Below, piece by piece: positions 3,848 to 8,338 of a stretch of 41,238 bases of DNA. The stretch lies in the NCBI GenBank assembly GCA_001816475.1, contig MHCC01000027.1:75312-116549 (forward strand), read 5' to 3'. Numbering within the stretch: position 1 is the first letter of the stretch; every line of letters begins with the position of its first letter. This DNA comes from Candidatus Blackburnbacteria bacterium RIFCSPLOWO2_01_FULL_40_20 (lineage in GTDB: Bacteria > Patescibacteriota > Microgenomatia > UBA8517 > UBA10165). Made by a program: the position numbers and the translations under genes. The notes under the pieces were generated by a model. That model had not been told where the DNA came from. It ran no database searches and was given only the letters and a program-made list of their open reading frames with translations.

Positions 3848-4054
3848 ATGGTCAAACGTATTCCTAAAGCCTTTGGAGAAAAGCTCAAGTATTACAGAAA
3901 ACAACGGGGTCTTTTGCAAGTAGAATTAGCAGATATTATAGGTGTTAGTACCGGTTATATTGGCGCTATTGAACAAGGAGTAAGGCTTCCTTCATTAAGA
4001 CTTCTAAAAAAGATCGCAAAAGCTCTCAAAGTGTCCCCTAGAGACCTTCTGTAA
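3848..4054 (+). CDS. XRE-family HTH transcriptional regulator
   Basis: FGEKLKYYRKQRGLLQVELADIIGVSTGYIGAIEQGVRLPSLRLLKKIAKAL is a canonical HTH_3; internal ATG at 3848 preferred over 3827. Confidence 0.85.
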   Translation: MVKRIPKAFGEKLKYYRKQRGLLQVELADIIGVSTGYIGAIEQGVRLPSLRLLKKIAKALKVSPRDLL

Positions 4055-4106
4055 TAAAAGTTCTACATTTTAGCCTCGTTTTGCATTTGCCTTCCGATAA
4101 ATTTGC

Positions 4107-4136
4107 TTGTCACACTTCTAATTAGACCAATATAAA
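4107..4136 (+). promoter_or_regulatory. Putative sigma-70 promoter (TTGTCA-18-TATAAA) for RepA-like gene
   Basis: TTGTCA at 4107-4112, TATAAA at 4131-4136. Confidence 0.45.
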
Positions 4137-4155
4137 TTCTTTTATTGGTAAAAAT

Positions 4156-4203
4156 CGGGTGGCTAATAAAGACTCCTGTGTGGGTGCCACCCGAAGCAGG
4201 AGT
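4156..4203 (+). promoter_or_regulatory. Structured 5' leader with interleaved stems; SD is part of second stem
   Basis: CGGGTGG(4156-4162)/CCACCCG(4187-4193) and ACTCCTG(4172-4178)/CAGGAGT(4197-4203), both perfect 7-mers; AGGAG 4198-4202, ATG 4212, T-run 4203-4207. Confidence 0.7.
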
Positions 4204-4211
4204 TTTTATTT

Positions 4212-5381
4212 ATGATAAATAACAAATTTGAACTAGAAATAGAAGATTCACTTAAACCAATTGATATTAAAGTTCTTACATGGTCAGAGTTTAAAGCTCA
4301 AACGTACGAGGAGCCTAAATGGATAGTCGAGGGTCTAGTACCAGAGAAAGGTTTGGTTGCAATTGCAGGTTCACCAGAGTCTTGTAAATCTTTATTTTCA
4401 AATTACCTTGCAGCAACAGTGGCGAGAGGAAATACATTATTTGACCTTTATAAAACCATTCAGGTTCCTGTTCTTCTAATCGATCAAGAAAATCTTGAAC
4501 CTTGGCTTCAAAAACGTCTTTCTGATTTTATAGAGCAGGATGATATACCATTACACATTTATCCTAAGCAGGAATGGGTATTTAACGTAGATGATCAATG
4601 TGTATTTGATGAAGTCCTTAAATATATCGATAAGCATAAAATTGGTTTAGTAATTATTGACACTCTCCGTTTCATCCATAACAAGGATGAAAACTCTTCA
4701 ACTGAGATGAAACCAGTTTTTGACAGACTTCGCCAATTAACCGAAGAGACAGCAGTAATTTTTATACATCACAACAAGAAAACTGATAAGTTCAGCAGAC
4801 GTAGGGTTGATGGCGAAGACATGATGGGAAGCATAATTATCAGAGGGTGTGTGGATTCTCAACTTACTCTTACTAAGCTTAGCGATGTTGCCGAAAGCGT
4901 TACAAAGATAAAAGTAACCCAGACTAAATCTAGATATACAAGGCCAATTCCTTCATTTGCTCTAACTTTAGAAGAGACTGACACAGGACTCGGATTTGTT
5001 TATCAAGGAGTCGTGGAAGAAGATAAATTAAAGAAAGATGAAGCAAAAGAGGCTGTTTTATCTCTTTTAGAGCAAACGCTAACACGACAAGAAATTATAG
5101 ACCAGGTCATTCAAGCTAAAACATGTTCCAAAAGAACAGTAGAATCTGCATTAAGCGAGCTTATAAAAGAGAAGAAAGTAACTCGCTCAACTACTAAGCC
5201 TTTCTATTATTCGCTTCTTAAAGAAGAGCAACTAAGTGTTCCGCAATTCGCAGATACACATATAGATTACGGAGTTGCGGAGAGCTTAAGTCAGGCAAAT
5301 AAAACCTCAGATCAGTTAACGGATGGAGAACTACTAGATATTTTTCCAGGAGCGACCATTGAAGGAGTACCTCGTGCTTAG
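4212..5381 (+). CDS. RepA-like AAA family ATPase (AAA_25 type) with C-terminal winged-helix-like segment
   Basis: IAGSPESCKSLFSNYLA (variant Walker A), GLVIIDTLRF (Walker B), AVIFIHHNKK. Confidence 0.8.
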   Translation: MINNKFELEIEDSLKPIDIKVLTWSEFKAQTYEEPKWIVEGLVPEKGLVAIAGSPESCKSLFSNYLAATVARGNTLFDLYKTIQVPVLLIDQENLEPWLQKRLSDFIEQDDIPLHIYPKQEWVFNVDDQCVFDEVLKYIDKHKIGLVIIDTLRFIHNKDENSSTEMKPVFDRLRQLTEETAVIFIHHNKKTDKFSRRRVDGEDMMGSIIIRGCVDSQLTLTKLSDVAESVTKIKVTQTKSRYTRPIPSFALTLEETDTGLGFVYQGVVEEDKLKKDEAKEAVLSLLEQTLTRQEIIDQVIQAKTCSKRTVESALSELIKEKKVTRSTTKPFYYSLLKEEQLSVPQFADTHIDYGVAESLSQANKTSDQLTDGELLDIFPGATIEGVPRA

Positions 5382-5561: not shown

Positions 5562-5642
5562 TGTACTCAAACGACTGATTGCTTTTTTTGATGGCCGTCT
5601 TGGACAACCTGAGCAATCAGTTTGAGTACAACCAGGGCGGCC
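5562..5642 (+). promoter_or_regulatory. Interleaved inverted repeats upstream of serine recombinase
   Basis: TGTACTCAAACgacTGATTGCT(5562-5583)/AGCAATCAGTTTGAGTACA(5612-5630), and GGCCGTCTTGG(5593-5603)/CCAGGGCGGCC(5632-5642). Confidence 0.7.
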
Positions 5643-5654
5643 TTTAAAGGTTTT

Positions 5655-7391
5655 ATGGAAGAAAAACAAATCTATCTTCGCTATTTAGGATATGCGCGCA
5701 AGAGTTCTGAGGATAACAAGGAGCGGCAAGCGGCTTCTCTTCCAGAGCAACTATATGTGCTCGAAGGAATAAAAGCAAAACACACCCTAAATGTTGTTGA
5801 AGTTCTCCAAGAATCAAAATCTGCACATAAACCCGGGCGAGAAATCTTTAACAATATGCTTGCCCGAATAGAGAGTGGTGAAGCAAATGCAATTTTAACT
5901 TGGCACCCAAACAGACTTTGCCGTAATGCACTTGACGCAGGCCAGCTTCTTTATCTCATGGATGAAGACAAATTAGTCGAAATTCGCACACCTTCGCGGA
6001 CGTATCGAAATACCCCGGAAGATAAGTTTATGTTGACCCTTGAATTTGGTATCTCTAAAAAAGACTCAGACGATAAAAGCATTGTTGTTGAAAGAGGCCT
6101 AGAGAAGAAAGCAAGAGATGGTTGGAGACCAGGCGTTGCTCCTCAAGGGTATCTGAACGATAAAACAACCGAAAGTGGATTTAGGAAGGTACTTACCGAT
6201 TCAGAACGCTTCCCTTTTATCCAGAAAATTTTTGTGTTGTTTCACCAAGGTACAGCAGTCGTAGAAATACATAGATTAGCAAAAGATATATGGCATTATC
6301 GCTCAAGACAGAAGAAAAGAAGTGGAGGCAAACCACTTTCTTTGAGCATGATTTATAAGATTTTGACTAACCCTTTTTATTGTAAAAAGTTTGAATACCC
6401 AGAAGGAAGTGGAAAATGGTATGAAGGCGCACACGAACCAGCAGTAGACCAAAAGATATTTGACGAAATACAGGTTAAATTAGGCCGTAGAAGCCAATAC
6501 AAACTCCAACACCACAACTTTGCCTATACAGGCAGTATGGTTCGCTGTGGCTCGTGTAGCTCAAGCGTAGTAGCAGAACAAAAGTGGCAATGTATTTGCA
6601 CCAAATGCAAGCTTAAATTCTCGCTTACCAAGAAAAATAAGGAAAAATGCACTGGTTGTGGAACTCTTATTAAAAATATGGACGACCCAACCATTCTCCA
6701 CTACATTTATTACCGTTGCGGGAGAAAAAGGAATCCAAGTTGTAGAGAAAAGGCAGTACGAGTAGATAGGCTCGAGAAACAAATTGACGAAACACTATCT
6801 CAAATTGAAATCTCACCCTTGTTTATGGACTGGGCAGTACGCCAGATTATTAAAGACAATAAACAAGAGAAAACCTTCCAAGATGACACCACAGAAAACA
6901 TTAAACGAGGCCATAGCGATTGCCGGATTAAGCTCAACAACCTATTGCAACTCAAAATTTCACCAGCTAATCAAGACGGCAGCTTATTGAGCGACGAGCA
7001 ATACAAAGTTCAAAAAGAAACCTTGGAAGCAGAACTAAAGGGGCTGGGGAAACAGCTTATGGGTATGGACGAACGCTTAATTCGAGCAAACGACCAAACC
7101 GAGAAAGCGTTTACCTTTGCCACAAGAGCTAAAGAGCGGTTTGCAAATGGAGATATTAAAATAAAGCGAGATATTTTTATGGGACTTGGGTCGCACCTAA
7201 CCCTAAAGGATAAAATTGTGGGTTTTGACGCACCAGAATACATTTATACACTTAAAAAGATGAAAGAAGCGGAGCCAATTATCGCAGAACGGGTCGCACC
7301 TGAAAATCAGCCTGAATATACGCACCAAATGGAAACATATTTTGCCTCCAGTTCTACCTTGTTGCGGGGCCGGGAGTCGCGCCCGGCCTAG
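5655..7391 (+). CDS. Large serine recombinase
   Basis: YLGYARKSSEDNKERQAASLPEQ resolvase domain, recombinase domain, zinc ribbon (CGSCSSS...CTKC...CTGC), coiled coil. ATG at 5655 preferred over TTG at 5622. Confidence 0.93.
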   Translation: MEEKQIYLRYLGYARKSSEDNKERQAASLPEQLYVLEGIKAKHTLNVVEVLQESKSAHKPGREIFNNMLARIESGEANAILTWHPNRLCRNALDAGQLLYLMDEDKLVEIRTPSRTYRNTPEDKFMLTLEFGISKKDSDDKSIVVERGLEKKARDGWRPGVAPQGYLNDKTTESGFRKVLTDSERFPFIQKIFVLFHQGTAVVEIHRLAKDIWHYRSRQKKRSGGKPLSLSMIYKILTNPFYCKKFEYPEGSGKWYEGAHEPAVDQKIFDEIQVKLGRRSQYKLQHHNFAYTGSMVRCGSCSSSVVAEQKWQCICTKCKLKFSLTKKNKEKCTGCGTLIKNMDDPTILHYIYYRCGRKRNPSCREKAVRVDRLEKQIDETLSQIEISPLFMDWAVRQIIKDNKQEKTFQDDTTENIKRGHSDCRIKLNNLLQLKISPANQDGSLLSDEQYKVQKETLEAELKGLGKQLMGMDERLIRANDQTEKAFTFATRAKERFANGDIKIKRDIFMGLGSHLTLKDKIVGFDAPEYIYTLKKMKEAEPIIAERVAPENQPEYTHQMETYFASSSTLLRGRESRPA

Positions 7392-7637
7392 GAGATTATG
7401 CTTGCTGTTTCTCCAATTACTTGGAGTGTCGGACTATCTCATCTCCGATATATATCGGAGTTTGGCGTATAGTCTCTACGGAGTCCTAGATCATTATCTT
7501 GCGATAATATTAAGGTTCCCTCGGGATTGCCCTTCGACTTCGATTAGGGTTTCCCCGATATAGCCAAATTATCATTTCAATGTTACCATCGAATGAGCCC
7601 ATTTTGAGCCTCCTGTGCAACTCTACACTACCCCGCA
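7362..7637 (-). tRNA. tRNA-Met-type (CAU, possibly initiator), exons 7607-7637 and 7362-7400, interrupted by group I intron
   Basis: Spliced: TGCGGGG TA GTGT AGAGTT GCAC A GGAGG CTCATAA TCTCC TAGG CCGGG CGCGACT CCCGG CCCCGCA A. Acceptor, anticodon and T stems all pair. Confidence 0.85.
7401..7606 (-). ncRNA. Group I self-splicing intron (206 nt, no ORF) in tRNA anticodon loop
   Basis: P1 GAGgCU/GGgCUC with U.G at 5' site; P3 UUUGGC/GCCAAA; P4 UCGGG/CCCGA; P6a AUUAUC-GCAA-GAUAAU; P7 GACUAU/AUAGUC; P8 CUCCGAU-AUAU-AUCGGAG; P9 CUCCAA-GUAA-UUGGAG; 3' terminal G. Confidence 0.93.
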
Positions 7638-7735: not shown

Positions 7736-7774
7736 TTGACAAATGGTATACTACTGTATATACTTTGGTATACC
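7736..7774 (+). promoter_or_regulatory. Promoter (TTGACA-17-TATACT) with operator palindromes for toxin-antitoxin operon
   Basis: TTGACA 7736-7741, TATACT 7759-7764; GGTATAC 7745-7751 / GTATACC 7768-7774 inverted repeat flanks the -10. Confidence 0.75.
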
Positions 7775-7775
7775 T

Positions 7776-8060
7776 ATGAATTATGCAATCGTTACTGCAA
7801 AAGTAGATCCTCAAACTAAAAAGGAGGCACAAAAAGTGGCCAAGAAATTGGGTATTCCCCTCAGCGTAGTAATAAAAGCTTTTTTAAAGCAATTTGCAAG
7901 AAGTAAAGCAATTGAATTTTCAGCACGAGACGAAGAGCCCAATAAATACCTAAAATCCGTAATGATGAAAGCAGAAGAAAGCTATAAAAAAGGTAAGACT
8001 TCACCTGCTTTCACAACTGCTGACGATGCTGTAAAGTATCTTGAAGACCGCGGAATATGA
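7776..8060 (+). CDS. RelB/DinJ-like antitoxin
   Basis: MNYAIVTAKVDPQTKKEAQKVAKKLGIPLSVVIKAFLKQF, ribbon-helix-helix; 4-nt overlap with toxin gene. Confidence 0.8.
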   Translation: MNYAIVTAKVDPQTKKEAQKVAKKLGIPLSVVIKAFLKQFARSKAIEFSARDEEPNKYLKSVMMKAEESYKKGKTSPAFTTADDAVKYLEDRGI

Positions 8061-8338
8061 CCATCAGATATAGTTCTGATTTTTTAAGACAATTAAAAAA
8101 ACTAAATGTCAGAGTCCGCAAAAGTTTTAAAGAAAAAATTACAACTTTTATTAAAAATCCCTTCAGCCCAGAACTTGACAACCACTCGCTCAAAAGGGAA
8201 TACCAAGGATATAGGAGTATTGATATTACAAACGATTACCGAGCCATATACCAAGAAAAGGTTGAAGGAGATGAGCTTGTTGCCTACTTTATTTCGATAG
8301 GAACACATAAAGAGTTATACGAGAAATCAACCTCGTAA
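8057..8338 (+). CDS. RelE/YafQ-like mRNA interferase toxin
   Basis: FLRQLKKLNVRVRKSFKEKITTFIKNPFSPELDNHSLKREYQGYRSIDITNDYRAIYQE...VAYFISIGTHKELY. Confidence 0.85.
   Translation: MTIRYSSDFLRQLKKLNVRVRKSFKEKITTFIKNPFSPELDNHSLKREYQGYRSIDITNDYRAIYQEKVEGDELVAYFISIGTHKELYEKSTS

Follow-up and report, generated by a model that had tools for sequence, protein, structure and literature searches.

How an integrative element in an ultra-small bacterium sets the output of its replication helicase is the question raised by this locus, in which two interleaved complementarities stand directly before a RepA-like gene. The stretch of DNA that was analysed, 41,238 nucleotides in all and called the window below, contains the following genes around that site:

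3848..4054, forward strand: Cro/CI-type HTH regulator gene upstream of repA (HTH_3, E=9e-18)
4212..5381, forward strand: RepA-like hexameric helicase gene (AAA_25), 389 amino acids
5359..5559, forward strand: small ORF, by eye resembling the pre-recombinase ORF of two other genomes (G019 and G040)
5655..7391, forward strand: large serine recombinase gene with Resolvase/Recombinase domains, a PHROG integrase; ATG at 5655, Shine-Dalgarno (SD) sequence AAAGG at 5646-5650
7363..7636, reverse strand: tRNA-Met(CAT) target gene, with 5' exon 7605-7636, group I intron 7399-7604 and 3' exon 7363-7398

The helicase protein matches AAA_25 (Pfam PF13481) at E=2e-25 with 90 bits, above the curated cut-off of 27, and a PDB search with its family profile returned RSF1010 RepA (1g8y) as the best match (E=3e-10), together with Twinkle helicases. 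An earlier sequence-only reading of this DNA had named a RepA-like ATPase and placed its leader next to a serine recombinase, and both assignments are supported by these family matches. The small ORF has no family match in Pfam and PHROG-type searches. The spliced exons of the opposite-strand gene are called tRNA-Met by ARAGORN, and its intron, a match to RF00028, lies in the anticodon loop; the same tRNA is apparently intron-free in G019. Since the helicase gene is followed by a serine recombinase gene whose 3' end overlaps the 3' half of the tRNA-Met gene, the locus is an integrative element, residing in a genome of about 0.96 Mb. Its far end is not delimited, because no second copy of the attachment region was found in its own genome at 86 bases. 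Those relatives of the element that carry a database name are Patescibacteria, probably also the lineage of the window. The closest recombinase relative (84% identity), found in G005 of the same family, has a different ATPase gene in front, and the recombinases of G040 and G019 (64% and 59% identity) have other modules attached, which indicates that these elements swap replication modules. Just past the tRNA end of the element lie a RelB-like antitoxin gene and a small following gene (7743-8338), probably a toxin-antitoxin pair. Two related elements (L149, L150) seem to have used the 5' end of a ychF-like GTPase gene, not a tRNA, as their integration site.

The region before the helicase gene comprises these sites:

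4107..4136, forward strand: weak promoter-like TTGTCA-18-TATAAA read from the sequence (boxes at 4107-4112 and 4131-4136, 18-nt spacer)
about 4143, forward strand: putative transcription start of the repA mRNA
4155..4163, forward strand: S1a, TCGGGTGGC, 9 perfect base pairs with 4186-4194
4165..4179, forward strand: S2a, extended arm with the core ACTCCTG (4172-4178), pairing with 4196-4210 in the MFE structure
4181..4193, forward strand: GGGT/ACCC local hairpin of the MFE structure, nested in the S2 state and competing for S1b
4186..4194, forward strand: S1b, GCCACCCGA, partner arm of S1a
4196..4210, forward strand: S2b, extended arm with the core CAGGAGT (4197-4203) and the SD AGGAG (4198-4202), followed by a T-run

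Both boxes of the promoter proposed earlier are present, but their score is equalled in 24 of 200 shuffles (12%), which is not beyond chance, and a consensus promoter scanner run on the window does not list them. The stems follow the order S1a-S2a-S1b-S2b. They had been described as two perfect 7-bp complementarities with 3 nt between S1b and S2b; the interleaved order stands, and the S2 core indeed has 7 perfect base pairs (4172-4178/4197-4203), extended by A/T pairs and two G.U pairs to 15 bp (4165-4179/4196-4210), whereas S1 has 9 bp, and with full S1 the gap, still tight, shrinks to 2 nt (4195-4196). The core of S2b contains the SD and ends 8 nt before the ATG at 4212, and the local hairpin competing for S1b is present, both as first read.

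In dinucleotide shuffles of the whole window, a pair of interleaved perfect stems with a combined length of 16 bp or more is expected 0.33 times per 41-kb strand, and the pair found here sits exactly on the ribosome-binding site. The stacking-energy score of the 100-nt leader was matched by none of 1000 dinucleotide shuffles, and simple folding gives z = -3.0. When folding is predicted for a growing 3' end, S1 is the minimum (-19.3 kcal/mol) up to position 4201, and the S2 hairpin takes over from 4204 on (-22.6 to -25.9 kcal/mol); the SD is predicted to be unpaired in the S1 state and paired in the S2 state.

RepA-like genes were gathered by protein and profile searches of whole genomes (1,980, counted with repeats and including other queries). 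Besides the window, five further independent leaders, unrelated in sequence, show the same layout:

G670 (Ca. Daviesbacteria by database name; helicase 49% identical to that of the window): GCCAGG..GCCCTCGGT..CCTGGC..ACCGAGGGT
G202: GGATTGGT..AAAACCACCTGAC..ACCAATCC..GTCGGGTGGTTTT
G934: GTGCGACGAC-ac-GCCAACC-actaa-GTCGTCGCGC-GGTTGGC
G355/G865: GGTTTGC-a-GGAGCTG..GCAAGCC..CAGCTCC
G388/G177: GACAAAC..AAGCATCGTAG(T/C)..GTTTGTC-c-GCTATGGTGCTT

Each interleaved leader is equalled by 0-4 of 1000 shuffles. The comparison covered 237 leaders, each with 80 nt or more of free space, the background being taken from the loci collected; a score of -28 or lower was reached by 7 of 16 RepA-like leaders versus 2 of 221 others (Fisher p = 5e-8). 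The seven include the nearly identical pair G388 and G177, and one of the two others overlaps a known LOOT RNA end. G388 and G177 differ by a single base, which converts a G.U into a G-C pair. The layout is missing from several RepA-like genes that have space for a leader (L117, L124, L131, L137) and from every one that lies directly behind another ORF. In the element region of G202, a LOOT RNA (RF03000) overlaps another interleaved structure before a gene of 209 amino acids (L114:3316-3439; L073 about 4087-4245). At the five further leader-bearing loci whose surroundings were read (G670, G202, G934, G355, G388) a serine recombinase lies downstream, as judged from sequence and not by family search.

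Common to the six leaders are the stem order and the start of S1a 56-73 nt before the ATG, which indicates an mRNA leader. The 3' arm lies at most 24 nt from the ATG in all six, and the S1b-S2b gap is 0-7 nt (0-4 nt in most). A sequence or loop motif common to the six was not found. Homologous leaders without compensatory changes in either stem would have refuted the sequence-only reading; it withstands this test, as the layout is kept while every pair is replaced, a wholesale compensatory change. For the leader of the window itself, the genomes searched yielded no close homologue, so this covariation is between, and not within, close families. The exact leader pattern was absent from viral contigs and from a first scan of genome contigs, and a second scan returned the Daviesbacteria locus only; repA itself had remote helicases but no close homologues in viral contigs, plasmids and phages. 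Rfam gave no match to the leader at E <= 1, weak matches falling far below gathering scores, and its cut-offs were reached elsewhere only, by tRNA, LOOT and the group I intron. The existence of the stems, their occurrence above chance and their return with replaced sequence are shown, as are the identity of the gene and the element context, and the stems of the window are a real, selected leader structure. The interleaved hairpins before the helicase gene probably form a genuine on/off switch, not described before, for replication of the element.

The gap between S1b and S2b is so short in most leaders that, on geometric grounds, an ordinary H-type pseudoknot could hardly accommodate both stems in full length, and this favours a two-state leader. 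The stems are probably alternatives, as had been suggested at first; the predicted switch between 4201 and 4204 points the same way. A translational leader in which S1 is permissive and S2 is not is given an even chance of being the correct description. The segment from about 4143 to 4211 would then be a two-state RNA that sets the helicase output of the element. During transcription, S1 would form first, with the SD unpaired. After the emergence of S2b, S2a would pair with this arm, either directly or by way of the S1 loop; the resulting S2, together with the hairpin nested in it, would be the more stable state, in which the SD is sequestered. The T-run after S2 may in addition terminate transcription. 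Helicase would be made within a limited window only, or only when something holds S1. We infer that the stems act in the RNA, that S1 is the on-state and that the two states exclude each other; a trans regulator is conjectural. Burial of the SD, as claimed by the sequence-only reading, applies to the window and G670; it cannot be the common mechanism, because in four of the six leaders S2b lacks the SD and has its end 13-24 nt upstream of the ATG. In these four, S2 may act at the edge of the ribosome footprint, or, as in IncI plasmids, initiation may be favoured by a pseudoknot.

An unlikely alternative is antisense control of the IncI-alpha/IncB/IncL-M type, in which S1 and S2 would together form a pseudoknot by the SD that promotes RepA translation and is blocked by a small antisense RNA from the opposite strand. 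The stem order is identical, the SD follows immediately after the end of S2b in four of the six leaders, and rapid sequence change with kept complementarity is expected of incompatibility-type antisense control; the reverse strand of the window also carries S1 followed by TTTTT at 4154-4150. However, none of the seven leaders tested has a reverse-strand promoter above shuffles (the promoter consensus being uncertain for these bacteria) or a conserved leader peptide or ORF, and in most the gap is too short for full-length stems to coexist.

Quite unlikely is a transcription attenuator of the pT181/pIP501 type, with S1 as antiterminator and S2 plus T-run as terminator, so that most transcripts would end before repA. 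The intrinsic terminator noticed earlier is consistent with TTTTTATTT after S2 in the window, with TTGTTTT after S2b in G670 and weakly with G202, and the predicted states are alternative, but as a general rule the terminator is not supported: S2b is not followed by a T-run in G934, G355 or G388, and a terminator scan lists no site at the leader, though its loops were limited to 8 nt. The stems might also be a binding site, in mRNA or DNA, through which RepA itself or the HTH protein of the element represses repA autogenously. Autogenous feedback is common in replicons, and the Cro/CI-type regulator gene lies just upstream; this explanation is nevertheless very improbable, as the six leaders share no sequence or loop motif and DNA operators leave the replacement of both arms in each homologue unexplained. 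Finally, a signal in single-stranded DNA (hairpins for priming or of an origin, RSF1010 ssi-like) that happens to precede repA is scarcely credible, since, although elements of the RSF1010 kind with a RepA-type helicase use hairpin priming sites, the fixed distance to the start codon and the SD overlap fit an mRNA leader, and no iterons were found nearby.

The two-state leader gains support, by analogy, from a second and strongly covarying leader, uncatalogued so far, to which the study of repA led:

5563..5642, forward strand: interleaved recombinase leader (P1 5563-5571/5621-5629; P2 5575-5583/5612-5620; crossing P3 5593-5603/5632-5642)

It lies 1.4 kb downstream of the repA leader and consists of a P1/P2 hairpin of 18 bp and the crossing P3 of 11 bp, which ends 12 nt before the recombinase ATG. 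It recurs in about 17 other genomes, and its core pattern, 22 sites in 20 of 223 genomes of the class, includes some chance occurrences. A recombinase lies within 2.2 kb at about 15 of the inspected sites; at others the contig ends too early or different genes are present. The members (L009, L055, L152-L154, L158, L160-L162, L164-L167, L170-L173 and the window) share the conserved core T6-RATGGCCGYYTYGGACAA. In the 18 aligned members, window included, 98.7% of the cells are paired, and two-sided changes occur in 10 of 22 pairs; the covariation score is 0.355, whereas shuffles give 0.134 and sliding gives no more than 0.096. P1/P3 were evaluated on this 18-row alignment and the arms checked by direct listing, a MAFFT alignment of five leaders having misplaced the P2 arm. 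Rfam contains no match for this leader, and viral contigs do not contain its exact core pattern. The gap between the crossing helices is 0-3 nt in most members; both helices covary yet can hardly form together, which argues for selected alternative states. In L152 and L161 the leader lies between the arms of an inverted repeat, GGCAGTTT...AAACTGCC, which reaches the start codon and whose downstream arm looks partial in L158; this repeat is possibly an operator or an extra enclosing stem.

Tentatively, integrative elements of the Patescibacteria type may control both replication helicase and serine recombinase via small bistable leader RNAs that share one topology (order S1a-S2a-S1b-S2b, with the 3' arm by the start codon). 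In that case, the leader of the recombinase gene would be a conserved new RNA class with the invariant core T6-RATGGCCG...GGACAA, perhaps sensing a common signal that coordinates replication and excision. How RNA controls replication genes has been studied thoroughly for a few groups of plasmids from cultured bacteria, and our literature search found no paper on the regulation of such mobile elements in ultra-small bacteria. The repA leaders, six natural sequences with a single topology, are testable constructs that give access to the question of how these elements remain quiet; genetic manipulation has been reported for Saccharibacteria (PMC10633639).

Among known systems, the co-transcriptional fluoride and preQ1 riboswitches also have interleaved stems and switch near an SD or terminator, whereas the repA leaders have no conserved ligand-binding core and no Rfam match. 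RSF1010 (IncQ) RepA and the helicase of the window fall into one hexameric helicase fold group (1g8y), but RSF1010 is a mobilizable plasmid, not an integrative element with a serine recombinase, and to our knowledge an interleaved leader is not among its features. In rep attenuators of the pT181/pIP501 type, the leader before rep adopts one of two conformations that exclude each other (PMC8383071). Alternative conformations are likewise predicted here, and an antiterminator/terminator pair with T-run can be seen by eye in the window; in contrast, the T-run occurs in some homologues only, and the promoter scan gave no indication of an antisense RNA.

In ColIb-P9 (IncI-alpha), repZ requires a pseudoknot upstream of its ribosome-binding site, which the antisense Inc RNA blocks (PMC8383071). 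Like the IncI-alpha repZ and the IncB and IncL-M repA leaders, the leaders described here have interleaved pairing adjoining the SD of a replication gene, and RNA structure is predicted to control its translation. In contrast to them, the stems are strong (6-15 bp each) and lie within about 55 nt, the protein is a RepA-type helicase (AAA_25) and not an IncI-type initiator, and in the window the SD itself lies within S2b. Of the IncI/IncL analogy drawn at the outset, the topology thus holds, but membership is neither supported nor established, because neither antisense promoter nor conserved leader peptide was found. The repA leader is a new variation on RNA-controlled replication genes, a control logic that was apparently built repeatedly, with free sequence turnover, in mobile elements of ultra-small bacteria.
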